Assembly: GCA_017619275.1 (NCBI GenBank)
Contig: JAFZSR010000098.1
Location: 1 to 55,705 of the forward strand
Direction of reading: 5' to 3'
Length of the DNA: 55,705 bases
Origin: Prevotella sp.
GTDB lineage: Bacteria; Bacteroidota; Bacteroidia; Bacteroidales; Bacteroidaceae
How positions within the stretch are numbered: position 1 is the stretch's first letter; every line of letters begins with the position of its first letter. The position numbers were made by a program, and so were the translations under genes. The notes below the pieces were generated by a model, which was not told the origin of the DNA, did no database searches, and saw nothing but the letters and a program-made list of their open reading frames with translations. Below, piece by piece: positions 1,741 through 35,597 of this stretch.

Positions 1741-4032
1741 ATGAAAAAGAATATGTTTTCAATCAGTGAGTCGATCAAGACTCCCGCTCAGATGCAACCC
1801 TGCACCCCTGAGCTGCTTAACGCTGCGCTCGATAGCCAGCAAGTGGCCAACACCTGCCAAGAGATAGCCAAAAAGCTGGCAGAAGTGAGAGAAGGCAAGC
1901 TCTCACGCGAAGCCTTCGAGACCATGAAATCGAAACTGAAAGCCGATGGGCTGCCCGTGGTTTGCTTCCACGCCACCTTCACCGATGGCTACCGCCACAA
2001 CCAGTCGGCCGTGCCCAGTGGCCTCTCCATCTACGACGTCGACCATCTGCAAGACAGCCCTCGTGCCTACTATTACTGCAAGGTGTCGGGGCGCGAGGCG
2101 GAGCTGGGCATCTCGCTGGCACACATCTCGCCGAGCGGCGAGGGCATTCGCCTGGTGTTTGAGGTGCCGCAAGGCATGTCGCTGGCCGAGGCTCAGCAAT
2201 GGATGGCCGAGCAGCTGGGCGACGACACCTACGACGGCAAGGTGAAAGACCTGGCGCGTTGCTCGTTTGTCGTCAGTCGCGACTATGTGCTCTACTACGA
2301 CGAGGAGGAACTGTTCAAGGAGCGCGAGGTGTCGATGCCTTTGGAAAGCAGTGGGACAATTGAGACAATTAGGACAATGAATTCTGCGCCCTTGCTCCCA
2401 CCGTCCACCGATGATTCCGCCGCTTTCGAGGACAACTTCAACGGCATTGACTATGAGCACATTGTGCGCGCGCTGGAAGAGCAGCTGGGGGCTGCGCCCG
2501 CAATGGGAGCCCGCAACAACTTCATCTTCGCCATGGCTTGCAACCTGCGCTATGTGTGCAACGACGACCCACGATGGATTGCCAAAGTGCTGCCCCGATA
2601 TGGCGAGGAAGAGGCGAAGTTTCTGTCGACGGTACGCTCGGCCTGCAACCGCCCTCAGAACAAGGCTGTCCCAGACTTGGTGAATCGCGCTTTGGAGTGT
2701 GCTCGATTGCGCCAACAGGTCGACGAGGCCATCAAGGCCAACGGAGTGTATGCTCCCCAGCCTCCGCAGATGCCTCGGAGGCTCACCAAGTTCATGCGTC
2801 TCATCACGAAGAACGTGCCCGAACATTTGCGCCCAGCGGTGGCGATGGGCGTGTTCCCCGCGCTGGGAGCCCATTGCAAGGGCGTGAAGTTCCGCTACAA
2901 CGACAATGCCCTTGTGGAGCCTACGTTCATGAATGTGCTGGTGGCCGAGATGTCGAGCGGAAAGTCGTGTGTCAACGAACCCATCAACGCCATCATGGCC
3001 GATATCAAGGAGCACGACGCCAAGAACCGCAAGCTGATGCAGGAGTATAAGGAGCAGTACGACACTTGTCCCTCGGACGAGCAGAAGCCCGAGCGACCCA
3101 AGGGGCTGGCGGTGCAATGGGTGAAGTCGGACATGACGCCCGCTGCCTTCGTGCAACTGATGGCCGATGCTGGCGGCAAGTTCCTCTATACCCGCATGGA
3201 CGAGATTGGTATGCTCAACCAGCTGAAAACCAACGGGCGAGGCAACAACGTGACCGAGATTCTGCGCCTGGCCTACGATTGCGGCGACTATGGCCAAGAG
3301 CGCGTGGGCACCAAGTCGGTGTCGGAGAGCGTGGAGGTGCGCTGGAACTGGAATGCCTCGGCTACGCCCGGCAAGTGCCGCCGATTCTTCGCCGACGCCA
3401 TGCTCGACGGCACCCTCTCGCGCATCAGCTTCAGCACCATCTTCACCGACGACGACCGTCTGCCCGTTTATGGCAACTACGACGACAAGTTCAAGAAGGA
3501 AGTGCAGGGGCATGTGGCCAGCCTCAACAATGCCGTAGGAATCGTCATCTGCAAGAAAGCCAATCAGTTGGCCGCCGCGATGATGGAGGAGAACCGCCAG
3601 TATTCAACCCTGGCCGACGACGACACCTATCGCGAGCTCTCCTATCGTGCCACCCTCTCGGCGTTCAAGCGCGGCATGCTGCTCTATCTGCTCAATGGGC
3701 AGAAATGGACGCGCGAGGTGGAGGAGTTCGTGCGCTGGTCGTTCCATTACGACATGTGGTGCAAGATGTGGATATTCGGCGAGAAGATGCGCCGTGCGAT
3801 GGACTTGGACAAGGCCGTGATGCTGCCCGGTCGCCGCAATCTGATGGAGTTCCTCCAGGATAGCTTCACGCTCGACGACCTGAACACCGTGCGCCGTGCA
3901 CAGGGTATGAGTGGCGATGGCTTGCCGCTCGTGCGCAAGTGGCTCCAGCGCGGCTATTGCACCTTCGACCACGTCACCCAGCAATACACCAAGAGTCAGC
4001 AGTTCATCAACAAGCATCCGAAGGGGGCATAA
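1741..4032 (+). CDS. VirE-N/BT4734-like primase domain plus DUF3987-type ATPase, orphan
   Basis: 763 residues. Residues about 65-190 match the BT4734-like/VirE N-terminal domain: LSIYDVDHL near 95-103 and SPSGEGIRLVF at 130-140 resemble the DxD and sGxGh motifs of archaeo-eukaryotic-type primases. Residues about 345-750 look like the DUF3987 helicase-like region, with a P-loop-like EMSSGKS at 403-409 and MDEIGML near 487. Such proteins usually belong to integrated elements, often beside HU-like and amidase genes. Here none of those partners, an integrase or a tRNA is visible, so it is an orphan. A linker at residues 205-213 is encoded by three 9-bp tandem repeats. Proposed role, inferred from domains: DNA replication priming or unwinding for a mobile element. 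Confidence 0.82.
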   Translation: MKKNMFSISESIKTPAQMQPCTPELLNAALDSQQVANTCQEIAKKLAEVREGKLSREAFETMKSKLKADGLPVVCFHATFTDGYRHNQSAVPSGLSIYDVDHLQDSPRAYYYCKVSGREAELGISLAHISPSGEGIRLVFEVPQGMSLAEAQQWMAEQLGDDTYDGKVKDLARCSFVVSRDYVLYYDEEELFKEREVSMPLESSGTIETIRTMNSAPLLPPSTDDSAAFEDNFNGIDYEHIVRALEEQLGAAPAMGARNNFIFAMACNLRYVCNDDPRWIAKVLPRYGEEEAKFLSTVRSACNRPQNKAVPDLVNRALECARLRQQVDEAIKANGVYAPQPPQMPRRLTKFMRLITKNVPEHLRPAVAMGVFPALGAHCKGVKFRYNDNALVEPTFMNVLVAEMSSGKSCVNEPINAIMADIKEHDAKNRKLMQEYKEQYDTCPSDEQKPERPKGLAVQWVKSDMTPAAFVQLMADAGGKFLYTRMDEIGMLNQLKTNGRGNNVTEILRLAYDCGDYGQERVGTKSVSESVEVRWNWNASATPGKCRRFFADAMLDGTLSRISFSTIFTDDDRLPVYGNYDDKFKKEVQGHVASLNNAVGIVICKKANQLAAAMMEENRQYSTLADDDTYRELSYRATLSAFKRGMLLYLLNGQKWTREVEEFVRWSFHYDMWCKMWIFGEKMRRAMDLDKAVMLPGRRNLMEFLQDSFTLDDLNTVRRAQGMSGDGLPLVRKWLQRGYCTFDHVTQQYTKSQQFINKHPKGA
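2353..2379 (+). repeat. 3 x 9-bp in-frame repeat inside the primase-like gene
   Basis: GGGACAATT, GAGACAATT and AGGACAATG follow each other exactly on codon boundaries, encoding GTI-ETI-RTM at residues 205-213. They sit in the linker between the N-terminal primase-like domain and the ATPase region. Confidence 0.75.
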
Positions 4033-4075
4033 CCAACAGAACGGGCTGCGTCAAATTAGCTTGCATTATTCACGA

Positions 4076-4236
4076 AGGAGTTTAGGAGTATGGGAGTTTA
4101 GGAGTGTGGGAGTTTAGACAATAGTTCTGGCGTTTCAGCAGACTCAGATTCTTTCTGTCAGCTTTATAGCGAAAAGTCTATTGTCTAAACTCCTAAACTC
4201 CAAAACTCCATAACTCCAAAACTCCTAAACTCCTAA
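4076..4236. repeat. Inverted repeat with 8-bp tandem arms between convergent genes
   Basis: The left arm (4076-4124) is built from degenerate 8-bp units such as AGGAGTTT and GGGAGTTT. The right arm (4178-4236) has the complementary units AAACTCCT and AAACTCCA. The inner ends pair perfectly as GAGTTTAGACAATAG with CTATTGTCTAAACTC. It fills almost all of the space between the primase-like gene and trxB, which converge, so the RNA hairpin may also act as a two-way terminator. Confidence 0.8.
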
Positions 4237-4242
4237 GAAAAA

Positions 4243-5172: not shown

Positions 5173-5195
5173 TTTTTCTCTCTTTTAGTTTTGTG

Positions 5196-5328: not shown

Positions 5329-5332
5329 CGGC

Positions 5333-5599: not shown

Positions 5600-5606
5600 G
5601 ACAACT

Positions 5607-6734: not shown

Positions 6735-7694
6735 TTAAATCTTCCAGTCGATGAGGATTTGTTCCTTGGTTGTGTTCTCCACCTTCTGCTCGGTCTCGTC
6801 GGGCAGATTACAGAAGAAGTCGATGCCGGTCTTCTCCTCCAGTTGGTGGATGTTGAGCACGTATTTGCTCAGTGCGTCGCCTTTCTTGTTCTGGCTGGTA
6901 TGCTCCACCCAGAAGGCCAGGGCCTTGTATTGCCCTTGGTTGTCTTCGCAGAGCAGGGCCATGAAGAAGTATCTGGGAACGACCATGCCCGTGACGGTAT
7001 AGGCGCGAATGTTGTTGTCGTCGATGGTGCCGCCTTTTACGGCATAGAGCACTCGGCGGAAGCTATCGTCGCGCGCCCACTCTTGCACTTTGTTTTCCAT
7101 GTCGGCCCAGATGCCCGTGTTGAGCGCCGACGACTGGGGCATGATGTTCGAGAGGTAGAACGTCTGCTCGTTGGCCTCCTTCGAGTTGAGCCTGTCGGCC
7201 GAGGCGCAGATGTGTCCGCGCTGATAGGGTATGCCGTAGTATTCCTCCAAGTCGGTTCTCACCTCTGGTGCCAGGTCGGGGTCGGGCTGGAAGGGGTCGC
7301 CCCATCCGTGTGTGCTCATGTTGAGCATGGCCCAGGGGTTGTCTTTCTCGTAGTCCCAGTTATTGCGGTTCCACGCGCGTCCGCTGTTCCCTCGGTACCA
7401 CTGCCAGCAGGTCCAGCGTTGTGTTCGCTTGGCGCAGTCGTACTCGATGGCGTAGTTGATGCCATAGTTGGGCACACGGCGCACCAGCACGATGCTGTTC
7501 TCGTCGCCCTTTAGGCGCGGGAACTCCAGGCGGGCATAGTCGGTGCTCTCGGAAATGGGATTGCGGTTGGTGTTGGTGCCGTTGTCGGCAGGCTTTTCTT
7601 GTGTGTTGGCTGTTGGTAGTTTGTCGTCGTCATCGCACCCTGCGGCCAATAGCGCAAGCAGTAGCAGGGGAATTAGTTTTAGTTTTAAGTTCAT
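6735..7694 (-). CDS. DNA/RNA non-specific endonuclease lipoprotein
   Basis: 319 residues. The first 20 residues are a lipoprotein signal ending in LAAGC (Cys20), followed by DDDDK, an acidic run typical of Bacteroidetes surface-export signals. The nuclease domain (about 55-310) has QRGHICASADR at 159-169, the counterpart of the DRGH motif of the NucA family, with His161 as general base, and LSNIMPQ at 181-187 whose Asn183 would bind the metal. It should cut DNA and RNA outside the cell. It lies downstream of rpmE2 and of the TonB/lipoprotein genes on the same strand. Its start codon falls in a run of 7-bp repeats (7690-7738). Confidence 0.92.
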   Translation of the reverse strand: MNLKLKLIPLLLLALLAAGCDDDDKLPTANTQEKPADNGTNTNRNPISESTDYARLEFPRLKGDENSIVLVRRVPNYGINYAIEYDCAKRTQRWTCWQWYRGNSGRAWNRNNWDYEKDNPWAMLNMSTHGWGDPFQPDPDLAPEVRTDLEEYYGIPYQRGHICASADRLNSKEANEQTFYLSNIMPQSSALNTGIWADMENKVQEWARDDSFRRVLYAVKGGTIDDNNIRAYTVTGMVVPRYFFMALLCEDNQGQYKALAFWVEHTSQNKKGDALSKYVLNIHQLEEKTGIDFFCNLPDETEQKVENTTKEQILIDWKI

Positions 7695-7738
7695 AGTTCA
7701 TAGTTTAATGTTCAACGTTCAACGTTCAATGTTCAACG
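7690..7738. repeat. 7 x 7-bp degenerate repeat over the nuclease start codon
   Basis: Seven consecutive heptamers: TTCATAG, TTCATAG, TTTAATG, TTCAACG, TTCAACG, TTCAATG, TTCAACG. The minus-strand ATG of the nuclease gene (7692-7694) is part of the first unit, so the repeat makes up its 5' leader. Confidence 0.85.
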
Positions 7739-7739
7739 T

Positions 7740-7785
7740 TTAAGGTGCGCACAAGGCATATGCAACTACCCTGAACGCACCTTAA
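7740..7785. repeat. Inverted repeat between rpmE2 and the nuclease gene
   Basis: TTAAGGTGCG (7740-7749) and CGCACCTTAA (7776-7785) are perfect 10-bp arms with a 26-nt loop. It may end rpmE2 transcription or be the partner of the adjacent heptamer repeat. No strong U-run follows on the minus strand. Confidence 0.5.
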
Positions 7786-20064: not shown

Positions 20065-22239
20065 TTATACCTGCTTCATTGACAAGGCAATGCGATGCCT
20101 GCGCTGATCTACTTCTATAACCTTCACTGTGACGTGCTGGTGCAGCTTCACCACGTCGGAGGGATGGGCAATGCGGCGGTTGGCCATCTGCGAAATGTGC
20201 ACCAATCCGTCCTGATGCACGCCGATGTCGACGAAGGCGCCAAAGTTGGTGATGTTCGTCACAATGCCGGGCAGCACCATTCCCTCCTCCAAGTCGTCGA
20301 TGGTCTGCACGCGACTGTCGAAGCTGAACTCCTCGATTTGCTCGCGTGGGTCGCGTCCGGGCTTCTCCAGCTCGTGCATGATGTCGGTCAGCGTGGGCAA
20401 GCCCACGTCTTTGGTGATATACTTTTTTATATTTATATTCACGCGAGCGCGAAGTTCCTTCTGCTCTATCAGGTCTTTCACGGTGCATCCCTGGTCGTGT
20501 GCCATTTGTTCTACGATGGCATAGCTTTCGGGGTGCACGGCGCTGTTGTCGAGCGGGTTCTTGGCTCCGTGTATGCGCAGGAATCCGGCGCACTGCTGGA
20601 AGGCAGCGGGACCCAGTCGGGGCACTTTCTTCAGTTGTGCACGGCTGTTGAAGGCACCGTTCTGCCGTCGGTAGTCCACGATGTTCTTGGCCAGTGCAGG
20701 CCCCAGTCCGCTCACGTATTGCAGCAGGTGGCTGCTGGCGGTGTTCAGGTCGACGCCCACCTGGTTCACGCAGCTCTCCACGGTCTGGTCCAGCTGCCGT
20801 TTCAGCTTGGTCTGGTCCACGTCGTGCTGGTATTGTCCCACGCCGATGCTCTTCGGGTCGATTTTCACCAGCTCGGCCAGCGGGTCCATCAGGCGGCGGG
20901 CGATGGAGACGGCACCGCGCACGGTGACGTCCTCGTCGGGGAACTCGTCGCGGGCCACCTTCGAGGCGGAATAGATGGAGGCGCCATCTTCGCTGACGAC
21001 GAAAACGGGGATGGTAGGTGGGGTAGGATTAGTAGGTGTGGTAGGTTTTGTAGGAAGGATGCTTTCGATGAAGGCGCGGGTTTCGCGGCTGGCGGTGCCG
21101 TTGCCGATGGCGATGGCCTCGATGTGGTAGTCGCTGAGCATTTGCTGCACGTGCACCATGGCTTGCATGCGGCGGTTCACGGGCGGGTGGGGGAAGATGG
21201 CTTCGTGGTACAGCAGGTTGCCTTGTGCGTCGAGGCACACCACTTTGCAGCCCGTGCGGAAACCGGGGTCGATGCCCATCACACGCTTCTGTCCCAGTGG
21301 GGCGCCTAATAGCAGCTGTCGCAGGTTCTCGGCAAAGACGCGTATGGCCTCGTCGTCGGCCTGTTCCTTGCTTAGGTTGTTGAACTCCGTTTCTATCGAT
21401 GGTTTCAGCAGACGTTTGTAGCAGTCTTCGGCCGCCTCGGCCACCAGTCGGCCGCATGCGTTGTTGCTGCGCACCCATTGGCGTTGCAGGCGGTCGATGC
21501 ACTCCTGGTCGTCGACAGGGTCGATGCTCAGTCGCAGGATGCCCTCGGCCTCGCCTCGGCGCATAGCCAGCAGACGGTGGCTGGAGCAGCGGCGCAGGGG
21601 TTCGTGCCAGTCGAAATAGTCGCTGAATTTCTGTGCTTCGTCGCTGTCGGCCTTGGCTTTCACCACCTTCGATGTGATGATGGCGGTGCGACGGTAGCTG
21701 CCGCGCAGCTGCTGGCGCGAGCGCTCGTCCTCGCTGATGGTCTCGGCGATGATGTCCTGTGCCCCTTTCAGGGCGGTGGCGACATCGGAAACGTCGCCCA
21801 CGACGAACGTGCGGGCGGCGCGCTCCACGTCGGCCTCGCGCTGCAGCATGATGAGCTGGGCCAGTGGCTCCAGCCCCTGCTCGCGGGCTATCTGTGCGCG
21901 AGTGCGGCGGCGGGGCTTGTAGGGTAAGTAGATGTCCTCCAGCTCTGTAGCGTCCCAGCAGTCGTCGATGCGCTGCTGCAGTTCGGGCGTCATCTTCTGC
22001 AGGTCGTTGATGGTCTTCACCACGGTTTCCTTGCGCTTGGCTATCTCCTTCAGTCGCTCGTTCTCATCGTTGATGGCGGCTATCTGTACCTCGTCCAATG
22101 CGCCGGTGCGTTCCTTTCTATAGCGCGATATAAAAGGAATGGTGCAGCCCTCTTCGAGCAGCGCGAGGGTGTTGCCCACTGTCTCCACGTTCAGGTTCAA
22201 GGCCTGGGCTATGAGTTTTGCAAAAATGTTTTTTTCCAT
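20065..22239 (-). CDS. tex: Tex family transcription accessory / S1 RNA-binding protein
   Basis: 724 residues from ATG 22239 (MEKNIFAKLIAQALNL). The frame runs 13 codons further upstream but through the promoter box. Features in order: N-terminal helical region with LPYKPRRRTRAQIAREQGL, YqgF-like nuclease fold (VMGIDPGFRTGCKVVCLD), the hallmark VKIDPKSIGVGQYQHDV, HhH repeats (LNTASSHLLQYVSGLGPALA) and a C-terminal S1 domain (LPGIVTNITNFGAFVDIGVH). Binds nucleic acid. An extra PTKPTTPTNPTPPTIP between SIL and VFVVSEDGAS is encoded by five 9-bp repeats and is not part of normal Tex. Confidence 0.96.
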   Translation of the reverse strand: MEKNIFAKLIAQALNLNVETVGNTLALLEEGCTIPFISRYRKERTGALDEVQIAAINDENERLKEIAKRKETVVKTINDLQKMTPELQQRIDDCWDATELEDIYLPYKPRRRTRAQIAREQGLEPLAQLIMLQREADVERAARTFVVGDVSDVATALKGAQDIIAETISEDERSRQQLRGSYRRTAIITSKVVKAKADSDEAQKFSDYFDWHEPLRRCSSHRLLAMRRGEAEGILRLSIDPVDDQECIDRLQRQWVRSNNACGRLVAEAAEDCYKRLLKPSIETEFNNLSKEQADDEAIRVFAENLRQLLLGAPLGQKRVMGIDPGFRTGCKVVCLDAQGNLLYHEAIFPHPPVNRRMQAMVHVQQMLSDYHIEAIAIGNGTASRETRAFIESILPTKPTTPTNPTPPTIPVFVVSEDGASIYSASKVARDEFPDEDVTVRGAVSIARRLMDPLAELVKIDPKSIGVGQYQHDVDQTKLKRQLDQTVESCVNQVGVDLNTASSHLLQYVSGLGPALAKNIVDYRRQNGAFNSRAQLKKVPRLGPAAFQQCAGFLRIHGAKNPLDNSAVHPESYAIVEQMAHDQGCTVKDLIEQKELRARVNINIKKYITKDVGLPTLTDIMHELEKPGRDPREQIEEFSFDSRVQTIDDLEEGMVLPGIVTNITNFGAFVDIGVHQDGLVHISQMANRRIAHPSDVVKLHQHVTVKVIEVDQRRHRIALSMKQV
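21013..21057 (-). repeat. 5 x 9-bp in-frame repeat inside tex
   Basis: GGTAGGTGG, GGTAGGATT, AGTAGGTGT, GGTAGGTTT, TGTAGGAAG run head to tail, 45 bp, so the reading frame is kept. On the coding strand each unit gives x-P-T, together LPTKPTTPTNPTPPT. Confidence 0.85.
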
Positions 22240-22412: not shown

Positions 22413-24437
22413 GTGATTTCCGTAGAAGGATTGAAGGTGGAGTTTGGCGTGAAGCCGCTGTTCAGCGAAGCCAGCTTCGTTATCAACAGCCGCGACCGCA
22501 TTGCCTTGGTGGGCAAGAATGGTGCCGGCAAGTCGACCATGCTGAAAATACTGTGTGGAATGGAGCGCCCCACGGCTGGCACGGTGAGCGTGCAGAACGA
22601 CATCACTATGGGCTATCTGCCGCAGGTGATGAATCTGCAGGACGAAACTACCGTGCGTCAGGAAGCCCAGAAAGCCTTTGCCGACGTGCAGCGCGTGAAA
22701 GACCGTCTGGACCGCCTGGAGCGGCAGATGGCCGAGCGCACCGACTACGAGTCGGAGGCATATATGCAGATTGTGGAGCGCTACACCGCCGAGCACGAGC
22801 GTTATCTGATGATGGGCGCCGAGGGGCAGGAGGCTTCCTTGGAGCGCACCCTTACCGGCCTGGGCTTCCTGCGCACCGACTTGGAGCGCCCCACCAGCGA
22901 GTTCAGTGGAGGCTGGCGAATGCGTATTGAGCTGGCGAAGATCCTGCTACGCCACCCCGACGTGCTGCTCTTGGACGAGCCTACCAACCACCTCGACATC
23001 GAGAGCATCCAGTGGCTCGAGCAGCTGCTGGCAGGGTGGAGTGGGGCAGTGGTGCTGGTGAGCCACGACCGAGCCTTTATAAATAATGTGTCGAACCGTA
23101 CGCTCGAGATCTCTTGCGGTCGCGTTATCGACTATCGGGTGAAGTACGACGAGTATGTGCAGCTGCGCCGCGAGCGTCGCGAACAGCAGCAGCGCGCCTG
23201 GGAGAACCAGCAGCGCGAGCTCCAGGACATGCGCCAGTTTATTGAGCGCTTCCGCTATCAGGCCACCAAGGCCGTGCAGGTGCAACAGAAGATTCGTCAG
23301 ATGGAGAAGATTGTGCCCATCGAGATTGACGAGGTGGACAACTCGGCCATGCACTTGAAATTCCCGCCCTGCCTGCGCTCAGGCGACTATCCCGTTATCT
23401 GTGATGAGGTGAGGAAAATTTATGGAATCTCCCTCAACGGACCCTCCCCCCTGCCCCTCCCTAGGGAGGGGTCGGGGGTGAGTCTGGAGGGGCCGGGAGA
23501 GGGTCATCTTGTCTTCGACCACGTCAACCTCACCATCAAGCGAGGCGAAAAGGTGGCCTTCGTGGGGCGTAACGGCGAGGGCAAGACCACGCTGGTAAAG
23601 TGCATCATGGGTGAGATTCCCTTCGACGGGCAGCTGAAGATAGGCCATAACGTGCAGATAGGCTACTTCGCCCAGAACCAGGCGCAGCTGCTCGACGAGA
23701 GCCTCACCGTGCGCCAGACCATCGACTATGTGGCCAAGGGCGACATACGCCTGCGCATCAACGACATACTGGGTGCCTTCATGTTTGGCGGCGAGAATGC
23801 CGACAAGCGTGTGAGCGTGCTCAGCGGCGGCGAGCGAAGCCGATTGGCCATGATCCGTCTGCTGCTCGAACCCGTCAACCTGCTCATCCTCGACGAGCCT
23901 ACCAACCACCTTGACATGCCCTCGAAGGACGTGCTGAAGGAGGCCATCCGCGCCTTCGACGGCACCGCCATCATCGTCAGCCACGACCGCGAGTTCCTCG
24001 ACGGCCTGGTCACCAAGGTCTTCGAGTTTGGCGGTGGCCGCGTGCGTGAGCACATCGGCGGCATCTACGACTTCCTGCGTGAGAGGGCCGACAGTTTGGA
24101 GATGAGGGGTGAGCGTATAGAATTTGCGGCCAATGCCGATTCCAACAAGTCTGCTCCCTCAGCCCCTGCAGCCGCCCCCTCATCGGCCAAGAACGATTAT
24201 GCTGTGCGCAAGGAGCAGCAGAAACAGCTGCGGAAGGCCGAGCGGGCCGTGGAGGAGAGCGAGAAGAAGATTGCGCGCATGGAGCAGCGGCTGAAAGAAC
24301 TCGACCAGCTGCTCAGCGACCCCGCCAAGGCTTGCGATATGACGCTCGTTAGCGAATATACCGACACCAAGCGCCAGCTCGACGACGAGGTGGAGCGCTG
24401 GGAGCAGCTGAGCGAGCAGCTCGAACAACTTACATAA
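22413..24437 (+). CDS. ABC-F family ATPase
   Basis: 674 residues starting with GTG 22413. Two nucleotide-binding domains without membrane helices: Walker A VGKNGAGKST near 33-42 and VGRNGEGKTT in the second half, signatures EFSGGWRMR and VLSGGERSRL, and two LLDEPTNHLD / ILDEPTNHLD Walker B motifs. The linker is basic and helical and the C-terminus (about 590-674) is a coiled coil, as in Uup/YdiF-type proteins acting on ribosomes. Between DEVRKIYG and HLVFDHVNL, normally contiguous, sits an extra stretch (GPSPLPLPREGSGVSLEG) from a palindromic repeat. Confidence 0.95.
   Translation: MISVEGLKVEFGVKPLFSEASFVINSRDRIALVGKNGAGKSTMLKILCGMERPTAGTVSVQNDITMGYLPQVMNLQDETTVRQEAQKAFADVQRVKDRLDRLERQMAERTDYESEAYMQIVERYTAEHERYLMMGAEGQEASLERTLTGLGFLRTDLERPTSEFSGGWRMRIELAKILLRHPDVLLLDEPTNHLDIESIQWLEQLLAGWSGAVVLVSHDRAFINNVSNRTLEISCGRVIDYRVKYDEYVQLRRERREQQQRAWENQQRELQDMRQFIERFRYQATKAVQVQQKIRQMEKIVPIEIDEVDNSAMHLKFPPCLRSGDYPVICDEVRKIYGISLNGPSPLPLPREGSGVSLEGPGEGHLVFDHVNLTIKRGEKVAFVGRNGEGKTTLVKCIMGEIPFDGQLKIGHNVQIGYFAQNQAQLLDESLTVRQTIDYVAKGDIRLRINDILGAFMFGGENADKRVSVLSGGERSRLAMIRLLLEPVNLLILDEPTNHLDMPSKDVLKEAIRAFDGTAIIVSHDREFLDGLVTKVFEFGGGRVREHIGGIYDFLRERADSLEMRGERIEFAANADSNKSAPSAPAAAPSSAKNDYAVRKEQQKQLRKAERAVEESEKKIARMEQRLKELDQLLSDPAKACDMTLVSEYTDTKRQLDDEVERWEQLSEQLEQLT
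23440..23503 (+). repeat. GC-rich palindromic element inserted in frame in the ABC-F gene
   Basis: Centre CCCCTCCCTAGGGAGGGG (23454-23471) is a perfect 18-bp palindrome, flanked by ACCCTCCCCCCTG on the left and TCGGGGGTGAGTCTGGAGG on the right. The right half matches the element inside tamB at 33041-33070. Confidence 0.85.
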
Positions 24438-26971: not shown

Positions 26972-27120
26972 TTGGGGAGTTAAAGGAGTGAAAGGGAGTT
27001 AGAGGGAGTTAAAAGACAATAGTTCTTCTCTTAAAGTCCCGCTCCTTAGGTGTTCAGAGGTTGAAAGGTAACGTCCTTTAACTCCCTCTAACTCCCCCAT
27101 AACTCCCTTTATCTCCCCAA
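26972..27120. repeat. Inverted repeat with GGGAGTTA-type arms before leuB
   Basis: Left arm 26972-27015 (GGGAGTTAAAGGAGTG..., repeated GGGAGTTAGA) and right arm 27072-27120 (TTTAACTCCCTCTAACTCCC...) pair loosely over about 45 bp, ending TTGGGGAG / CTCCCCAA. The loop begins ACAATAGTTCT, the same as at 4119 in the repeat before trxB. Confidence 0.8.
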
Positions 27121-27168: not shown

Positions 27169-28245
27169 ATGAAACTGAAGATTGCAGTATTGCCGGGCGA
27201 CGGTATAGGCCCGGAGATTATGACGCAGGGCCTGGCGGTGATGGACTCCATCGCTCGCAGGTTCGGCCACGAGTTTAGCTACGAGGAGGCGCTGGTGGGC
27301 GCCCATGCCATGGACGTGGTGGGCGACCCCTATCCCGATGCCACCCACGAGGTGTGCATGCAAGCCGATGCGGTGCTGTTTGCCGCCGTCGGTTCGCTGA
27401 AGTACGACAACGACCCCACGGCACCAGTGCGCCCCGAGACGGGGTTGCTGGCCATGCGCAAGAAGCTGGGGCTCTTTGCCAACATTCGGCCCGTGGCCAC
27501 CTTCCCTTGCCTTTTGCATAAGTCACCGCTGAAAGAAGACCTGCTCCGTGGAGCCGATTTCGTGGTCATTCGTGAGCTGACGGGCGGTATGTATTTCGGC
27601 GAGAAATACCAGGACAACGACCGTGCCTTCGACACCAACGCCTATACCCGCCCTGAGGTGGAGCGCATTCTGCGGGTGGCTTTCGAACTTGCCAGGAAGC
27701 GCAAGAAGCACCTCACCGTGGTCGACAAGGCCAATGTGCTGGCCAGCTCGCGCCTGTGGCGACAGATTGCCAAGGAGATGGAGCCGCAGTGGCCCGACGT
27801 CACCACCGATTATATGTTTATCGACAATGCTTCTATGCGCGTGCTCACCGAGCCTCGCTTCTTCGATGTCATCGTCACCGAGAATACTTTTGGCGACATC
27901 CTCACCGACGAGACTTCCTGCATCACTGGCTCGATGGGCTTGCAGCCGTCATCATCGCTGGGACTCCACACGCCGCTCTTCGAGCCCGTGCATGGCTCGT
28001 GGCCACAGGCTGCCGGGCAGAACTTGGCCAACCCCATTGCCATGATTCTTTCGGCTGCCATGCTGCTCGAACACTTCGGGCTCTCCGAAGAGGGTGCACT
28101 CATACGCAAAGCCGTTGACGCCTCACTCCAGGCCAATGTGCGCACGCCTGAAATCCAAGTGGAGGGTGGGGCTCACTACGGCACCCGCGAGGTGGGTCAG
28201 TGGATTGCGGACTACGTCCTAAGTGATGGGCGGCCTTCGGCCTAA
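27169..28245 (+). CDS. leuB: 3-isopropylmalate dehydrogenase
   Basis: 358 residues from ATG 27169 ([18 protein letters not shown]); an upstream in-frame Met at 27130 adds non-conserved residues. Contains [20 protein letters not shown]-like arginines for substrate, the Tyr and Lys of the active site ([21 protein letters not shown]) and the signature [20 protein letters not shown]. Oxidatively decarboxylates 3-isopropylmalate with NAD in leucine synthesis. The other leu genes are not in the window. Its last residues SDGRPSA and stop codon come from a 23-bp tandem repeat. Confidence 0.96.
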
Positions 28246-28301
28246 ATGACAGGCGGCCTTCGGCCTAAATGATAAATGAAAAATGATAAATGATAAATGC
28301 T
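28229..28301. repeat. 23-bp tandem duplication plus 7-bp repeats at the leuB stop
   Basis: GGCGGCCTTCGGCCTAAATG occurs twice with a 23-bp period (28229 and 28252), each carrying the GGCC-TTC-GGCC hairpin. It runs into five heptamers AAATGAT, AAATGAA, AAATGAT, AAATGAT, AAATGCT (28267-28301). The leuB stop TAA (28243-28245) lies in the first 23-bp unit. Confidence 0.85.
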
Positions 28302-28324
28302 GCGCCCGAATGGGTGTCAAGACA

Positions 28325-29050
28325 ATGGTTTCGCGACGGATTGGTAGACTGCTCGGTTTATCATTTGCCATTTGTCATTTGTCATTGAACGTTGCGCTGG
28401 CGCAACCTTCAACGTTCAACATTCAACGTTCAACTTCTGAGTGGCGTGACTCGCTCGCTGTTCTTAACAAGGCCATAACAGCCAATCCTCAGTCAACTGA
28501 CCTGCGGCTGCGCAAGGCGGCAGTGAACATTGAGTTGCAGCAGTGGGACTATGCCATCGAGGAGTATGGCCGTGTGCTCAATATTGACGCGAATAGTTTG
28601 CCTGCGCTCTACTACCGTGCCTACGCTCACAATCATCTGCGCCACTACGACATGGCCCGTGCCGACTACGAGCGCTTCTTGCAGCTCTTGCCCCGCCACT
28701 TCGAGGCGCGCTTAGGACTGGCCATGACCATGCGGCGGCAGGGAAAGGCACGCGATGTCACCGAAGAACTGAATCGTCTGGTGGAGATGTTTCCCGACTC
28801 GGCCGTGGCCTATGCCGTCAGGGCCGACTTCGAGCAGGAGCAGGCGCAGTACGACCTAGCGCTCTACGATTGGGACGAGGCCCTGCGCCTGGCTCCCGAC
28901 CGGCAGGACTACCAGTTGGGTCGTTATGGTGTGCTGTGGGCCATGCGCCGTTACGACGAGGCGCGCCGACTGGGGCAGCAGTTGGTGGCAGGGGGCGTGC
29001 CCAATGCCACGCTCAGGCAATTGCAGGTTGATCCTCCCAAAAAGAAATAA
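28325..29050 (+). CDS. Secreted tetratricopeptide-repeat protein
   Basis: 241 residues from ATG 28325, chosen because MVSRRIGRLLGLSFAICHLS...ALA is then a good signal peptide; an earlier Met at 28283 lies in repeat DNA. The mature part (from about residue 45) is a run of TPR helices: LAVLNKAITANPQSTDLRL, YAIEEYGRVLNIDANSLPAL, MARADYERFLQLLPRHFEA, YDLALYDWDEALRLAPDRQD. Probably periplasmic scaffold; partner unknown. It is 6 nt before coaBC. Heptamer repeats encode much of the signal peptide and the first mature residues, an unusual origin. Confidence 0.85.
   Translation: MVSRRIGRLLGLSFAICHLSLNVALAQPSTFNIQRSTSEWRDSLAVLNKAITANPQSTDLRLRKAAVNIELQQWDYAIEEYGRVLNIDANSLPALYYRAYAHNHLRHYDMARADYERFLQLLPRHFEARLGLAMTMRRQGKARDVTEELNRLVEMFPDSAVAYAVRADFEQEQAQYDLALYDWDEALRLAPDRQDYQLGRYGVLWAMRRYDEARRLGQQLVAGGVPNATLRQLQVDPPKKK
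28357..28435 (+). repeat. 7-bp repeats encoding the TPR protein signal peptide
   Basis: Heptamers TTTATCA, TTTGCCA, TTTGTCA, TTTGTCA, TTGAACG at 28357-28391, and TTCAACG, TTCAACA, TTCAACG, TTCAACT at 28408-28435. The first set is complementary to the AAATGAT units at 28267-28301, so the pair forms facing arms around the start codon. Confidence 0.85.
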
Positions 29051-29056: not shown

Positions 29057-30250
29057 ATGCTGAAAGGAAAGAAAATCGTTCTGGGCATCACAGGCTCGAT
29101 AGCAGCCTATAAGTCGTGCCTCATCATCCGCGAACTCATCAAGCGCGGAGCCGAGGTGCAGGTGGTCATCACCCCTGCGGGCAAGGAGTTCATCACGCCC
29201 ATCACCCTGTCGGCCCTGACGCAGAAACCTGTCGTCAGCGAGTTCTTCTCGCAGCGCGACGGCACATGGCACAGTCATGTGAAGCTGGGCCTCTGGGCCG
29301 ATGCCATGCTCATTGCCCCCTGCACGGCCGCCACGCTGGGCAAGATGGCAACGGGCGTGGCCGACAACATGCTTGTCACCACCTATCTCTCGATGAAAGC
29401 CCCCGTGTTCATCGCTCCGGCCATGGACCTCGACATGTATGCCCATCCCACCACACAGCAGAACATGGAGCGGCTGCGCTCTTTCGGCAATCACATCATC
29501 GAGCCGCAGAGCGGTTTCCTGGCCAGCGGACTGGAAGGGAAGGGCCGTATGGAGGAGCCTGAGAAGATTGTGGATGTGCTCGACGCTTTCTTTGAGCCGA
29601 AGGACTTGCTGGGCAAGCATATCCTCATCACCGCCGGACCTACCTACGAGAAAATCGACCCTGTGCGCTTCATTGGCAATTACAGCAGCGGCAAGATGGG
29701 CTTCGCCCTGGCCGAGGAATGTGCACGCCGTGGCGCCCAAGTGACGCTCGTCGCTGGCCCCGTCAACGTCGTTCAACGTTCAACGCTCAACGTTCAACGT
29801 ATCAACGTAGAAAGCTGCCAGCAGATGCGCAATGCCGCCGTGGCTGCTTTTGCCAAAGCCGATGCCGCCATTCTCTGCGCTGCCGTGGCCGACTTCCGTC
29901 CGGCCGTTGTGGCCGAGCAAAAAATCAAACGGGTGGGGGAGAGCATGGATATCCATCTGGTGCCCAACCCCGACATCGCTGCCGAGCTTGGCCGTATGAA
30001 GCAAGCGGGCCAGTTGCTCGTGGGCTTTGCCTTGGAGACCAACGACGAGGAGGCCAACGCCCAGAAGAAGTTGCAGAAAAAGAACTTCGACTTTATCGTG
30101 CTCAATTCGCTGCGCAACGAGGGCACCTGCTTCCGCAGCGACGACAACCAAATCAGCATCATCTCGGCCAGCGGGCGAAAGGATTTCGAGAAGAAACCCA
30201 AGACGCAGGTGGCCAGCGACATCATCGACGAATTAAGCCAGCGACTATGA
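29057..30250 (+). CDS. coaBC: Bifunctional phosphopantothenoylcysteine decarboxylase / synthetase
   Basis: 397 residues, normal length. CoaC half: GITGSIAAYKSCLIIRELIK, the active-site His in WHSHVKLGLWADAMLIAPCTAAT and PAMDLDMY (PxMNxxMW-like). CoaB half from about residue 185: ITAGPTYEKIDPVRFIGNYS, SGKMGFALAEEC, CAAVADFRP and KKNFDFIVLNSL. Two steps of coenzyme A synthesis in the cytoplasm. A segment NVVQRSTLNVQRINVES after VAGPV is encoded by 7-bp repeats where other CoaB proteins have a short variable loop. The stop overlaps the next start as ATGA. Confidence 0.97.
   Translation: MLKGKKIVLGITGSIAAYKSCLIIRELIKRGAEVQVVITPAGKEFITPITLSALTQKPVVSEFFSQRDGTWHSHVKLGLWADAMLIAPCTAATLGKMATGVADNMLVTTYLSMKAPVFIAPAMDLDMYAHPTTQQNMERLRSFGNHIIEPQSGFLASGLEGKGRMEEPEKIVDVLDAFFEPKDLLGKHILITAGPTYEKIDPVRFIGNYSSGKMGFALAEECARRGAQVTLVAGPVNVVQRSTLNVQRINVESCQQMRNAAVAAFAKADAAILCAAVADFRPAVVAEQKIKRVGESMDIHLVPNPDIAAELGRMKQAGQLLVGFALETNDEEANAQKKLQKKNFDFIVLNSLRNEGTCFRSDDNQISIISASGRKDFEKKPKTQVASDIIDELSQRL
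29772..29807 (+). repeat. 7-bp repeats inside coaBC
   Basis: TTCAACG, TTCAACG, CTCAACG, TTCAACG, TATCAACG in a row. They encode QRSTLNVQRI in the loop after the VAGPVN strand of the CoaB half. Confidence 0.85.
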
Positions 30251-31152: not shown

Positions 31153-34100
31153 GGTTACTGAAGCACATCATCAACTGGACGTTGTGGAGCCTGCTGGGAC
31201 TCACCGTTGTGCTCTTCACGCTCATCCAATTGGCGCCCGTGCAACGTTGGCTGGGGCAGCGGGTGGCCGATGCCATCGGCTCCAAGCTGGGCACCGAGGT
31301 CAGTGTGGGGCGTGTTGACCTGGGTTTCTTCAACCGTTTGATTATTGATGATGTGCAGGTGCTCGACCAGCGGCAGGCCCCATTGCTTTCGGCCGACCGC
31401 CTGTCGGTGAAGCTTGAATTGTGGTCGCTGATATCCGATGGCCGTGTGTCCATTTCCTCGGCACAGCTCTTCGGCGCGAATGCGGTGCTCAGCCGCGACA
31501 GCGCCAATGCCGTCCCAAACTATCAGTTTGTATTGGATTCTCTTTCGTCGGGCAACGACGACGAAAATCCTTCGAAGCTCCAGCTGCACATTGGCTCGCT
31601 CATCGTGCGCCGCCTTTCGCTCAGCTACGACCAGCTTGATGCCCCCATGACGCCAGGCCGCCTCAATCCGCAACACCTGCGCATTGCCGACCTCAGCGCC
31701 CATGTGCTGTTGCGCGAGCTCACCAACGACTCCCTCTCCGTGCATCTGCGCCGTTTGTCGCTGCACGAGCATTCGGGCATCGACCTCAATCACTTGGCAT
31801 TCACGCTCGAAGCCAACCGCCAACACGCCTTGCTCACTCACTTGGCTCTGCAGATGCCCCAAACCGCACTTGCCATCGACACCCTGCAAGCCGATTTTCA
31901 GCCCGATAGCCTGGCTTCGTCGCTTCGCTATCGGCTATGCTTGTCGCCATCAACCCTTTCCCTGGCCGATGTGCAGAGCCTTCTTCCGCAAGATGTTCCC
32001 ACCGACCATGTATTCCAGATAGATGCCGCGCCCATTGAGGGTTCCCTCAGCGCCATTAACGTGCCCCGTCTGGCGGTGTCCACTACCGATGGTTGGTTCG
32101 ATATGCTGGCTTCGGCACGTATCACCTCCGATGAGTGTGAAGGAAAACTGTCGCGTCTGCATGTCGACGAGCATCTGCTGACCCAACTGCGCGATTTTTG
32201 GCCCTCGATGCCTGACGCCCTCGACCGTGTAGGCGATGTGGGACTTACTTCAACGCTGAACGTTCAACGTGCAACGATGAACGTTCAAGGTTCCGGCGTC
32301 GTCAGCAGCGGAGCAGGGAACCTGTCGTGGCAAGGCGGCTATCAGGGCGGCAATGTTCCCACTTGGAATGCAAGGCTCTCCACCGATAGCCTCGACCTGC
32401 GCCGTATCATTGGTTCCGACCTGTTGGGGTTGGTGGCCACCCATCTCGATTTGAGGGGGACGGGCAAAAACATCAGTGTGAAGGGACAGGTGCCCCGCCT
32501 CGACTTAAACGGCTACAGCTATCGCCAGCTGGCCATCGACGGTGTGTATTCGCCCTCGGCCGTAGAAGGTCAGCTGGTCATCGACGACCCTCATCTGCAG
32601 GCCGATGTTGAATTGGGAGTTAAACCCACCCATCTGCGCACCACAGGGCGCATCAGCCATATCGCTCCCCAGGCCTTGCATCTATCCGATCAGTGGGGCG
32701 ATGCCGTCTTCTCGGCCATCCTCGATGCCGATATTGGGGGTACCTCGCTGGCCGATGTTGAGGGCACCATCGACCTCGACGACTTCGTGATGGTCAGCGG
32801 CGACACCGCTCGTTATCATCTCGACAATCTGCACCTGCGTTCAGGCTATGACGATGGGCATCACTTCCTGCGCATGAACAGCGACTTTGGCGAGGCTCTC
32901 ATCAGCGGTCAGTTCAATCTGGCCACGCTCCCCGCCACCTTCAAATCGCTGCTGCCTATCGAGCGGACCCACCCCCAGCCCCTCCCTGGAGGGAGGGGAG
33001 CAGTTAGTTCTGCCAACAAGTCTATATACTCCCCTCCCTACAAGGGAGGGGCCGGGGGTGGGTCTGCAGGGTCCGCTCGGTCCGTCAATGACTTCACCCT
33101 CTCCCTACGTCTCTCCGATAGCAGATGGATGCAGCAGCTGCTGGGCTTGCCGCTCGATTTGGGCGATGGACGGCTCGACGTCAATGCCCGGGTGAACGAG
33201 CCTGCGCGCCAGCTCGACATTCGGGCGCAGGTGCCCGCCTTCAGCTTTGCCGCCAACGACCTGCGCGATGCCACGCTCAGCCTGGTCAGTCAGGGCGACA
33301 GCGCCCATTGCACCCTGCACCTGACGCGCCATACCGCTAAGGGCAACATCCAGGACCTGACGCTCAATGCCCAGGCCGATGGCGAGCAGCTGGCTTCCAC
33401 CATCAACATCTCCACCCCCCAGGCCGACCATGGCACCTTCAATACCATCACCCGCTTTTACACCAACGACGATGGCAAGGCCGAGACCCACGTGCGTGTG
33501 CTCCCCTCGCAGTTCATCATAAAGAACGCCACGTGGGAGCTGGAGCCCTGCGACATCGTCTATAGCGACAAGCGCCTGATGGTGGACCATTTCACCTTGC
33601 ATCATGACGACGAGCACCTCATCATCGACGGACTGGCCTCTACGCAGCCCGCCGACTCGCTCCTCATCGACCTCAATAGCTTCGATGTGGCTTATCTGCT
33701 CGATTTGGTCAATTTCCGCTCGGTGAAGTTTGGCGGCAAGGCCAGTGGCCGTGCATACGTGTGCCAAGTTTTTGACAAACTGCGCGCTTGGGCCGACCTC
33801 ACCGTCGACGATTTCTTGTTCCAAGAGGCGCGCATGGGTACGCTCGAAGCCTTTGCCGAGTGGGATGCCGACGAGGGGCAGGTGAACTTGGAGGCAGCCG
33901 TGGACGACGGTGCCGACGCCCAGACCTTCGTCGATGGCTATATCTCGCCACGTCAGAAGGAGATCGACCTGGGCATCCGCGCTCGCGGCACCACTCTGGC
34001 CTTCGTACATTCGTTCACCAAGAGCTTCATCAGCCACATCGATGGTCAGGTGCATGGTGATGTCCGCGTGCATGGCCCCCTGAAGCAAATCGATTTGAGT

Positions 34101-35597
34101 GGCGAGGCGGTGGTGCAGGGCCAGGCATCCATCAGCCCTTTGGGCACCGTATATCATTTCGATGGCGACACCGTGATGCTTTCGTCTGGTACTATTTCCT
34201 TCCACCAGTTCCGTGCCCTCGACCGCGATGGCCACGAGGCCCTGCTTAGTGGTGACATTCACCACCGGTATATGAAAAACTTCACTTTCGACCTCCAGGT
34301 CGAGGCCGACAAGATTCTAGCCTATGATTTCCCCCGCCCCGAAGCGGTGGCCAGCATTGGCGGCACCGTGTGGGCCGATGGCACCGCCACCCTGCGTGGG
34401 CGCCCTGGCGAGGTGGTCATCGACTGCGATGTCACTCCTGCTCCCGGCTCTGTGTTCTATTATAACGCCGCCGGACCCGATGCCATCAGTCAGCAGCGGT
34501 TCATCACGTGGGGCGATGAGCTAAGAGCTGAGGGCGCAGAGTCGAGAGACGTTGCATCGGGTGGATCAAAAGCAACGCCCAACGCTCAACCCACCTCCGA
34601 CCTGCGCATGAACCTGCGCATCAACGCCACCCCCGATGCCTACCTGCGCATACTCATGGACCAGCATTCGGGCGATGCCATCAGTCTGGCCGGCGACGGT
34701 GTGCTGCGCGCTGCCTATTATAACAAGGGTGCTTTCCAGCTCTTCGGAACGTATAATGTGGACCGAGGCACCTACGGCATGACCATCCAGAACATCATCA
34801 AGAAGAACTTCACTTTCCAGCCCGGTAGCTCCATCGTCTTCGGTGGCGACCCCTTCCAAGCCGTCCTCAACCTGAAGGCCCTCCACACCGTTAACGGTGT
34901 CACCCTGAGCGACCTCGGACTGGGCAACTCGTTCACCAGCAATACCATCCGCGTGAACTGCCTGATGAACATTGTGGGCACGGCGGGCGAGCCACGCGTG
35001 GAGTTCGACCTGGAGATGCCCACCCTGAACAGCGAGGAGCAGCAGATGATACGCTCCATCATAGCCAGCGAGCAGGAGTTGAACCAGCAGGTGGTCTATC
35101 TGCTGGGCATAGGCCGCTTCTACACGCAGACGGCCAACAACGCCGCTTCGCAGACATACGGGCAAACCGAGCTGGCCATGCAGAGCCTCCTCTCAGGCAC
35201 CGTTTCCTCGCAAATCAACCAGCTGCTGTCGCAGGTCATCCGCAACGACGACTGGAACTTCGGCGCCAACATCTCCACTGGCAACGAGGGCTGGCACAAT
35301 GCCGAATACGAAGGACTCGTCAGCGGACGTATGCTCAACAACCGCCTGCTCGTCAACGGTCAGTTCGGTTATCGCGACAATGCCACCCAGGCCATGCCCT
35401 CGTTCATTGGCGACTTCGACATCCAGTACCTGCTCACGCCCGCTGGAGGCATCTCGCTGAAAGCCTACAACAAAACCAACGACCGCTACTTCACCCACTC
35501 TTCGCTCAATACCCAGGGCATCGGCGTTATCCTCAAAAAAGATTTCAACGGACTTGGCGACCTCTTCTCAAATCGCAAAAGGAGAACGTCGAAATAA
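31149..35597 (+). CDS. tamB: TamB-like translocation and assembly module protein
   Basis: 1482 residues starting with GTG 31149 that overlaps the DUF4835 stop. One N-terminal anchor helix (IINWTLWSLLGLTVVLFTLI), then a very long region of repeating beta-strands as in AsmA/TamB lipid-transfer tubes, and a C-terminal DUF490/TamB domain (about 1050-1440) with PDAYLRILMDQHSGDAISL, YNVDRGTYGMTIQNIIKKNF and GTAGEPRVEFDLEMPTL. Spans the periplasm and helps outer-membrane assembly or lipid transport. Three repeat-derived stretches lie in frame at residues about 368-381, 606-643 and 1123-1147. Confidence 0.93.
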   Translation: MRLLKHIINWTLWSLLGLTVVLFTLIQLAPVQRWLGQRVADAIGSKLGTEVSVGRVDLGFFNRLIIDDVQVLDQRQAPLLSADRLSVKLELWSLISDGRVSISSAQLFGANAVLSRDSANAVPNYQFVLDSLSSGNDDENPSKLQLHIGSLIVRRLSLSYDQLDAPMTPGRLNPQHLRIADLSAHVLLRELTNDSLSVHLRRLSLHEHSGIDLNHLAFTLEANRQHALLTHLALQMPQTALAIDTLQADFQPDSLASSLRYRLCLSPSTLSLADVQSLLPQDVPTDHVFQIDAAPIEGSLSAINVPRLAVSTTDGWFDMLASARITSDECEGKLSRLHVDEHLLTQLRDFWPSMPDALDRVGDVGLTSTLNVQRATMNVQGSGVVSSGAGNLSWQGGYQGGNVPTWNARLSTDSLDLRRIIGSDLLGLVATHLDLRGTGKNISVKGQVPRLDLNGYSYRQLAIDGVYSPSAVEGQLVIDDPHLQADVELGVKPTHLRTTGRISHIAPQALHLSDQWGDAVFSAILDADIGGTSLADVEGTIDLDDFVMVSGDTARYHLDNLHLRSGYDDGHHFLRMNSDFGEALISGQFNLATLPATFKSLLPIERTHPQPLPGGRGAVSSANKSIYSPPYKGGAGGGSAGSARSVNDFTLSLRLSDSRWMQQLLGLPLDLGDGRLDVNARVNEPARQLDIRAQVPAFSFAANDLRDATLSLVSQGDSAHCTLHLTRHTAKGNIQDLTLNAQADGEQLASTINISTPQADHGTFNTITRFYTNDDGKAETHVRVLPSQFIIKNATWELEPCDIVYSDKRLMVDHFTLHHDDEHLIIDGLASTQPADSLLIDLNSFDVAYLLDLVNFRSVKFGGKASGRAYVCQVFDKLRAWADLTVDDFLFQEARMGTLEAFAEWDADEGQVNLEAAVDDGADAQTFVDGYISPRQKEIDLGIRARGTTLAFVHSFTKSFISHIDGQVHGDVRVHGPLKQIDLSGEAVVQGQASISPLGTVYHFDGDTVMLSSGTISFHQFRALDRDGHEALLSGDIHHRYMKNFTFDLQVEADKILAYDFPRPEAVASIGGTVWADGTATLRGRPGEVVIDCDVTPAPGSVFYYNAAGPDAISQQRFITWGDELRAEGAESRDVASGGSKATPNAQPTSDLRMNLRINATPDAYLRILMDQHSGDAISLAGDGVLRAAYYNKGAFQLFGTYNVDRGTYGMTIQNIIKKNFTFQPGSSIVFGGDPFQAVLNLKALHTVNGVTLSDLGLGNSFTSNTIRVNCLMNIVGTAGEPRVEFDLEMPTLNSEEQQMIRSIIASEQELNQQVVYLLGIGRFYTQTANNAASQTYGQTELAMQSLLSGTVSSQINQLLSQVIRNDDWNFGANISTGNEGWHNAEYEGLVSGRMLNNRLLVNGQFGYRDNATQAMPSFIGDFDIQYLLTPAGGISLKAYNKTNDRYFTHSSLNTQGIGVILKKDFNGLGDLFSNRKRRTSK
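32249..32290 (+). repeat. 6 x 7-bp in-frame repeat in tamB
   Basis: TTCAACG, CTGAACG, TTCAACG, TGCAACG, ATGAACG, TTCAAGG: 42 bp, exactly 14 codons, encoding TSTLNVQRATMNVQG. Confidence 0.85.
32963..33076 (+). repeat. 114-bp GC-rich palindromic element in tamB
   Basis: The outer ends GCGGACCC and GGGTCCGC pair. Inside are ACCCCCAGCCCCTCCCTGGA on the left and CCCCTCCCTACAAGGGAGGG followed by GCCGGGGGTGGGTCTGCAGG on the right. The right part matches the element in the ABC-F gene. It encodes RTHPQPLPGGRGAV and YSPPYKGGAGGGSAGSARS. Confidence 0.88.
34517..34591 (+). repeat. GAGCTGAGAG / CAACGCTCAAC repeat in tamB
   Basis: Degenerate words GAGCTAAGAGCTGAGGGCGC and GAGTCGAGAGACGTTGC, then GCAACGCCCAACGCTCAACC after a 16-nt spacer, loosely inverted to each other. 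It encodes ELRAEGAESRDVASGGSKAT, an odd hydrophilic loop between conserved strands. Confidence 0.6.

Follow-up and report, generated by a model that had tools for sequence, protein, structure and literature searches.

Why do several conserved protein genes on one Prevotella contig carry short tandem words and palindromes in frame? The window, meaning the whole stretch of 55,705 nucleotides that was analysed, is one entire contig (C123) of a 127-contig, 3.59-Mb assembly that is 85% complete. A first-pass annotation had reported such repeats in a primase-like gene, tex, an ABC-F gene, coaBC, and tamB, and had suggested an active repeat-generating process. We compared the source genome with G059, the nearest genome found, which represents a sister species (compared contig, 81,318 bases), and with other members of the genus; the source genome and G059 are both MAG-like drafts. 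Tandem arrays were called by TRF, the palindromes in ABC-F and tamB were seen by alignment and self-comparison, and protein names are from Pfam and NCBIfam. Coding sequences (CDS) were called as greedy longest ORFs, and some listed ORFs are in the wrong frame. We consider it probable that the in-gene repeats are coding copies of several small, non-autonomous, dispersed palindromic repeat families of rumen Prevotella lineages; they look like recent, recurrent insertions into tolerant linkers, with the frame held by selection.

Repeats in frame in conserved genes

The primase-like gene (1741-4032; Pfam BT4734-like_N and DUF3987) contains the reported 9-bp words in frame as a TRF array (2355..2378, + strand; GACAATTGA GACAATTAG GACAATGAA). 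The 9-mer is a member of an intergenic family (L014 2977, L009 6342 and 6539), and the G098 orthologue (L360) has a decayed-looking version of the array.

The ABC-F gene (22413-24437; NF000355 above cut-off) carries a 75-bp GC-rich palindrome in frame before its second ABC domain (23424..23498, + strand), and these 75 bp are missing from the aligned G059 gene. Among the best 30 loci from 100 genomes, 29 were resolved: 20 have a linker of 6-12 nt, six have 33-63 nt with no repeat character by eye, and three hold repeats, namely the source genome, G072 (a 108-nt word hairpin), and G022 (57 nt of the GGAACGA type). The genome_contigs search returned at least 593 pattern matches, 580 of those listed encoding a relative; among the best 80 of at least 580 relatives, the site is empty in 77 and filled in three (L230, L259, and L234), all with 7-bp words by eye. 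The two locus sets overlap, since L229 belongs to G059, the L259 insert matches that of G022, and the L230 insert resembles that of G072; the distinct kinds of insert therefore number four. In an AlphaFold2 model (26 sequences, mean pLDDT 72.4, pTM 0.41), residues 339-363, which correspond to the insert, fall below pLDDT 50 between two strands; four other segments elsewhere in the protein also score below 50.

A hairpin with TAAATGA/TCATTTA arms (28207..28386; TRF) runs from the 3' end of leuB into a TPR gene (28283-29050), and its right arm encodes a stretch that by eye resembles the h-region of a signal peptide. The same gene has a 24-bp GTTCAAC insert in frame (28406..28429, + strand; TRF array 28403-28434) that adjoins a TTGCGCTGGCGCAA palindrome and is absent from G059. 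TCATTTA-type and similar arrays also make up the hydrophobic stretch of signal-peptide-like segments of the ALSFIIYHLSFS-AQ type at other loci (L006 3959-3990 and 7842-7873, L079, and L110 and L112 of G059), so repeat DNA may supply signal peptides.

In coaBC (29057-30250; TIGR00521 above cut-off), a GTTCAAC array lies in a CoaB loop (29770..29808, + strand; TRF), although the greedy ORF calling assigned it to an overlapping ORF. In an alignment of 30 loci, the position of the array corresponds in relatives to a loop of about 11 residues, with little change in length. The 7-bp array is confirmed, and it replaces a segment of nearly equal length and is not an addition. The GTTCAAC word occupies this loop in the source genome, G059, and G033, and a different 7-bp word occupies it in G095 (L036). 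In tamB (31149-35597), both a GTTCAAC array (32249..32293, + strand; TRF) and a double GC-rich palindrome in frame (about 32956..33075, + strand; core TTAGTTCTGCC...AAGTCTATATA), the latter also present in G059, agree with the earlier description; the GAGCTGAG words near 34520 do not, being called as no array by TRF and largely common to G059. At 32249-32293, G059 has unrelated non-repeat sequence that is 3 nt shorter, and its tamB has GTTCAAC arrays at two places without an array in the source genome, which keeps two word-like units at one of them. A loop of like length has given way to the array in coaBC and at tamB 32249, an outcome that simple insertion would not lead one to expect.

The 9-bp array in tex encodes P and T (21012..21054, - strand; TRF). 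It exists as described, but its period is a multiple of three, it lies in a variable loop, and no intergenic family was seen to match it. G059 has one unit fewer, and across 30 loci of the genus the loop measures between 15 and 84 nt. Since just two of 15 long loops pass the repeat test, the source genome and G059 not among them, we treat this segment as a hypervariable loop; tex was set aside as an inserted repeat and reflects mostly ordinary loop variation.

The original observation of in-frame repeats thus stands in part, with corrections to coaBC, tamB, tex, and the GAGCTGAG words. That in-gene words also occur between genes is correct for some, including GTTCAAC and the primase 9-mer; for tex, no such tie was seen. 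The residues found in coaBC, ABC-F, the TPR gene, and a beta-galactosidase (GH2) gene discussed below are not shared by orthologues, so the alternative that these segments are old protein sequence is not borne out.

Repeats between genes

Hairpins and arrays also lie between or beside genes in the window. An intergenic hairpin with 8-bp GGAGTTTA arms and the core ACAATAGTTCTG...AAGTCTATTGTC (4076..4236; TRF) has a second copy in the source genome (L008 14266-14346, E 8.6e-17), and G059 matches it weakly (L116 18108, E 0.38). Another, with GGGAGTTA-type arms and the core AGACAATAGTTCT (26975..27117; TRF), is found at the same place in G059 (L058 13105), and a third has GTGAGAG / CTCTCAC arms (38659..38773; TRF). 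A GTTCAAC array (7680..7740; TRF) is located at and upstream of the 5' end of a gene on the - strand (6735-7694), and, between two genes, an eroded array of the GAAGAGT type precedes the exact anchor AATTTGCTACCGCAT (44265..44342, + strand). Rfam gave no match at gathering score across the whole window.

The window holds repeats of other kinds as well. A dispersed, mostly intergenic family of about 100 bp combines TTTTTCAAAAAGTCGTTACC units of 20-21 bp with AAAAATCTCGTACGAGATTTTT palindromes (24503-24554, 36743-36812, and many other loci). Intergenic 21-bp repeats of the AACCGCGACGCGGTCTATAT type occur at 53587-53668 and at L024 13713-13822, with similar flanks at both sites, and two tandem 420-bp copies that are 91% alike (8660-9469) lie within a gene on the - strand (8153-10381).

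Hairpin elements with recurring cores

Many arrays form inverted pairs, the arms of hairpins around a recurring core, and the arms are either arrays of 7-9 bp words or GC-rich palindromes. Window hairpins of like build are those at 4076-4236, 26975-27117, 28266-28386, and 38659-38773. The earlier interpretation is supported in part and needed amendment at this point: many of the arrays are hairpin arms and not free-standing tandem repeats. Three cores recur, ATAGTTYTG...GTCTATA, AATTTGCTACCGCAT, and TTCTTGCGTCCCTTCGGTAGCAAGCGACCAGAGGTCGAGCGCAAC, and several word families coexist in the source genome, as had been claimed. The GH2 element and the GC-rich family are inverted-repeat units of about 100-150 bp, the latter reaching a size of roughly 120-180 bp. 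Most GTTCAAC arrays have no recognised core, and many GTTCAAC copies are single arms that fall short of such a unit. A word-armed hairpin (TTGACCATT/AATGGTCAA) was also seen in frame near the amidotransferase region of a PurF-like protein (L095 9310-11130, - strand; TIGR01134 139 bits, below the cut-off of 350).

The ATAGTTYTG/GTATATAGAC motif has 33 matches in the stretches from the source genome and G059, 14 of which lie between inverted arms scoring 16 or more (12 elements, two matched from both ends), compared with 0.6% of 7,680 random positions. The arms of these elements are GC-rich in eight, GGAGTTTA in two, GGAGGGT in one, and GCCCCCGAGGGGGC in one. By analogy with telomerase, one repeat-writing activity might add templated words of 7-9 nt to the cores of hairpins and also to ends left by breaks or nicks; the core would then persist and move, and new words would be written into its arms. 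Such rewriting could account for the GC-rich, GGAGTTTA, and GGAGGGT arms found on the core ATAGTTCT...GTCTAT, for the single arms that stand alone, and for the overwriting of some loops at near-constant length. We consider such an activity quite unlikely.

In a count of 8-mers in the flanks of 189 arrays, the AATTTGCTACCGCAT anchor, which is partly common to TTCTTGCGTCCCTTCGGTAGCAAGCGACCAGAGGTCGAGCGCAAC, gave the strongest signal, and ATAGTTCT ranked 17th (eight arrays versus 0.7 expected, some of them orthologous copies). Of 100 genus genomes, 17 contain the exact AATTTGCTACCGCAT pattern, at 45 places in total, and none contains the reversed pattern, used as a control. This 15-mer is exact by design of the search, whereas the neighbouring words were not so constrained; GTGAAGA-like words lie upstream in 28 of the 30 loci read by eye (weak in L184, eroded in L187). 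The same GH2 gene accounts for several of these loci; inverted pairs make up some, and many consist of one half lying between a stop codon and the following start. That many (GTGAAGA)n-TTTGCTACCGCAT copies sit just after a stop and just before a start codon (by eye) would suit words that bind a protein or RNA, for example in the control of translation or mRNA stability, with the coding copies as by-products, and the part of PMC4679880 consulted proposes a regulatory role for TAACTGA heptamers upstream of starts in Beggiatoaceae. However, the copies in MetH, UvrA, GH2, and ABC-F have no plausible common regulatory role, and the words at one loop differ among species. We therefore regard a function as binding sites as very improbable.

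The 45-bp core TTCTTGCGTCCCTTCGGTAGCAAGCGACCAGAGGTCGAGCGCAAC occurs in identical form beside GTTCAAC words in MetH (L019) and UvrA (L094) of the source genome; it is in frame in both, and the evidence here is its presence in two genes. A near-identical copy at L090 in the same genome is also beside GTTCAAC words, and two more copies lack them (L008 in the source genome and L098 in G059). With cores at unlinked sites and in both orientations, and with copies present in some orthologues and missing from others, the units behave like small non-autonomous palindromes.

Local slippage would make the words arise de novo from seeds in fast-evolving linkers, with nothing moving; the likeness among words would stem from a few frequent or compositionally favoured seeds. 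Slippage would produce the differences in unit number seen at shared arrays (the 9-bp array of tex, coaBC, and L079), the coaBC words of several species start with the local GTCAAC of GPVN codons (by eye), and Borg elements are described as local-seed tandem repeats in proteins (PMC9879509, as excerpted). As a sole explanation, however, it is contradicted by long cores shared among unlinked copies in at least two families: the 45-bp core is identical in MetH and UvrA, and the GAAGAAT element is present twice in one gene and has its anchor in other species. The same two words are commonest in both sister species, and a core recurs between inverted arms, both of which also argue against slippage alone. 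We find it doubtful that slippage by itself accounts for the repeats, and we retain dispersed palindromic families as the preferred reading.

The beta-galactosidase loop

The GAAGAAT-armed element occupies one site in the beta-galactosidase of the source genome and two sites, in opposite orientations, in the G059 copy. It is 105 nt long, has a predicted stem of 25 pairs in its core, and can be read through without a stop in either of the orientations seen. Of the 25 loci in which the loop between WDWVDQG and YGGDFGD was resolved, ten have a loop of 18-30 nt and 15 a longer one. Seven of the 15 long loops pass an inverted-repeat or 7/8-tandem test at 0.0125, with L200 exactly at the limit and the source genome and G059 sharing one element. 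Two GC-rich loops are near the limit (0.020 and 0.035), and six fail, including four loops of 69 nt, a degenerate hairpin, and the 85-nt insert of G028. More than one family is thus present at a single site. The G028 copy (L213), whose length is not a multiple of three, breaks the frame and is the one exception to the claim that each repeat keeps the frame, which held in the other in-gene copies examined.

TTA or CTA often precedes the left edge of the insert (by eye). Visual inspection of GH2 site 1 showed no target duplication, but the orthologues there are too diverged to give base-exact empty sites. The element had no match in plasmids at E 1e-5. A contig from a viral collection (L379 610-699), which may be prophage or host sequence, has two TTTGCTACCGCA anchors after GAAGAAT-type words. 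For ABC-F, the TPR gene, and GH2, copies of the repeats occur both between genes and in frame, and the in-frame copies are absent from orthologues.

Excess over chance and spread among genomes

Arrays in CDS were counted for non-3n periods only, so that codon repeats were unable to score, and were compared with 20 codon shuffles. The fair counts are those from blind stretches, because the other samples were partly chosen for repeat matches: the blind set of the source genome comprises 28 stretches chosen without regard to repeats, and the full set of 41 adds 13 that are the window or were chosen for holding or adjoining repeat matches. The blind set has 24 non-3n arrays in 301 CDS (372 kb), versus a shuffle mean of 2.6 (maximum 7), and blind G059 stretches have 22 in 277 CDS (343 kb), versus 2.0 (maximum 5). 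All 41 source stretches gave 45 arrays in 489 CDS versus 5.7 (maximum 10), and all G059 stretches gave 31 in 320 CDS versus 3.1 (maximum 6), so the excess held after the recount was restricted to blind stretches.

Exact tandem runs in 192 kb of blind DNA from the source genome number 44 for period 7, nine for period 8, and 17 for period 9, compared with 7-18, 2-6, and 0-1, respectively, in five first-order resamples; tandem 7-bp repeats are over-represented in this genome, as in repeats of the STRR/LSSR kind. Within a first sample of 359 kb, the commonest period-7 words are GTTCAAC (12 of 79 runs) and TAAATGA (10 of 79), and the same two lead in 60 kb of G059 (seven and three of 20). Stretches of 4-40 kb from twelve other relatives have GTTCAAC once (G033) and no TAAATGA arrays. 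Searches used exact patterns in preference to a covariance model (R1), which would miss single arms. GTTCAAC x3 has 37 overlapping matches across the source genome; order-wide, it was found in two of 247 genomes, the source genome counted, in a sample with two other members of the family and none of the genus, so that this search tells little about the genus.

Three single-contig genomes of the genus have 1, 1, and 2 CDS arrays per 100 kb, versus 0.5-0.7 expected, and 6-14 arrays in total, CDS or not. G072 has nine CDS arrays in 80 kb versus 0.6, eight of them within two stretches chosen for an insert, and G034 has four in 40 kb versus 0.6, a count that rests partly on array-chosen stretches. 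Because the single-contig congeners have little or no excess, the array excess is confined to part of the genus or, less likely, to one kind of assembly. The source genome, G059, G072, and G034 are all multi-contig drafts, a pattern that an assembly or binning artefact of metagenome-assembled genomes could also produce. Such an artefact is extremely improbable: two species whose genomes were assembled separately carry the same GH2 element at the same position, in versions that differ by substitutions, the coaBC array is common to three species, and the reading frames are open around the arrays.

A putative route into genes and the search for a driver

In the mechanism that we propose, the typical unit would consist of a core and inverted arms, either GC-rich hairpins or head-to-tail arrays of 7-9 bp words. 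Units or single arms would enter the chromosome at many places, presumably through copying of the unit. Copies in genes would persist if they are in frame, stop-free on the strand that is read, and within a linker, loop, or signal-peptide segment; one strand of the GTTCAAC words is free of stops. Insertions that bring in a stop or shift the frame would be lost, so the in-frame pattern needs no special mechanism, and frame-keeping, probably by selection alone, is best read as survival. After entry, the arms may lengthen, shorten, and diverge by slippage, as length changes in tex, coaBC, and L079 suggest.

A repeat-generating process can be inferred from these products; no enzyme was found for it, and no target duplication was seen by eye at the GH2 site. 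No transposase was tied to the word-array families in the source genome. Its sole Y1-like match scored 24.4 bits in a six-frame search, with nothing at 1e-5 by hmmscan. This Y1-transposase-like ORF (L118 1378-1803, - strand; 141 aa) has palindromes GGATTTGCAATCC...GAGTATAAGGATTTGTAATCC on both sides (about 970-1230 and 1815-2050), which also occur at L017 6578, L021 10671, and L022 5820 and 11524, and the arrangement looks like a RAYT with its REP family. Because the match is weak and the flanks belong to a different palindrome family, the RAYT was set aside as driver of the word arrays. Since the assembly is 85% complete, a second RAYT gene could be missing from it.

Relation to known repeat systems

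If our reading is correct, enzymes of some rumen Prevotella contain pieces resembling selfish DNA. Selfish DNA read in frame within bacterial proteins is an oddity already recognised; here it would be frequent and come from several families. As the genus has many sequenced species, gain, slippage, and loss can be traced at single sites such as the beta-galactosidase loop, which makes it possible to test how dispersed palindromes move without a known transposase and how often non-coding repeats yield new protein segments. Annotators should be aware that signal peptides and linkers of this clade in some cases resemble repeat DNA. Among the literature matches listed, none reported coding palindromes from either Prevotella or Bacteroides, which is no claim that they are absent from print, and the peptides NVQRSTFNVQ and FILHSSFFILHSS had no occurrence among the papers listed. 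In-frame selfish DNA has reportedly also been described in Methanocaldococcus, judging from a title in a reference list.

Several systems share single features with the Prevotella elements. Heptameric repeats of cyanobacteria, Beggiatoaceae, and Xanthomonas are tandem 7-bp words that are dispersed in the genome and specific to lineages (PMC4679880, PMC4692102). Unlike the Prevotella arrays, they are under-represented in genes in one account (PMC4692102) and mostly lie just upstream of starts in the other (PMC4679880), and the portions of both that we drew on describe no hairpin cores. REP/BIME sequences with RAYT, and MITEs, are likewise dispersed short palindromes, some inside genes (PMC3733652, in the excerpts used). 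In the source genome, in contrast, the word-array families were not seen beside a RAYT gene, the one Y1-like gene found being bordered by another palindrome. Borg tandem repeats, as presented in extracts of PMC9879509, are fast-evolving, lie in ORFs, and encode disordered protein segments, which resembles the Prevotella arrays, but they are inferred to derive from local sequence at each locus, whereas the Prevotella words and cores are common to different loci.

The likeness to the coding palindromic elements of Rickettsia (RPE) that the first-pass annotation had drawn is apt. According to the sections of PMC2229807 and PMC6649704 available, RPE are small hairpins (105-146 bp, in 19 reading frames; PMC2229807) that lie between genes and in frame in conserved protein genes, with repeat identity fading over time, and Wolbachia has such coding palindromes too (WPE; PMC4224334, in part). 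The Prevotella elements are also small hairpins between genes and in frame in conserved genes, a likeness that rests on descriptions and not on sequence comparison. Unlike RPE and WPE, they often have arms composed of 7-9 bp word arrays, they comprise several coexisting families with different words, an arm may stand by itself, and they inhabit rumen Bacteroidota. Arms made of word arrays, a single core bearing different arms, and a loop invaded repeatedly by more than one family were not met in the portions of the RPE/WPE literature covered here. By analogy, the Prevotella families may work like the coding palindromes of Rickettsia and Wolbachia, as a variant of that mechanism in Bacteroidota.
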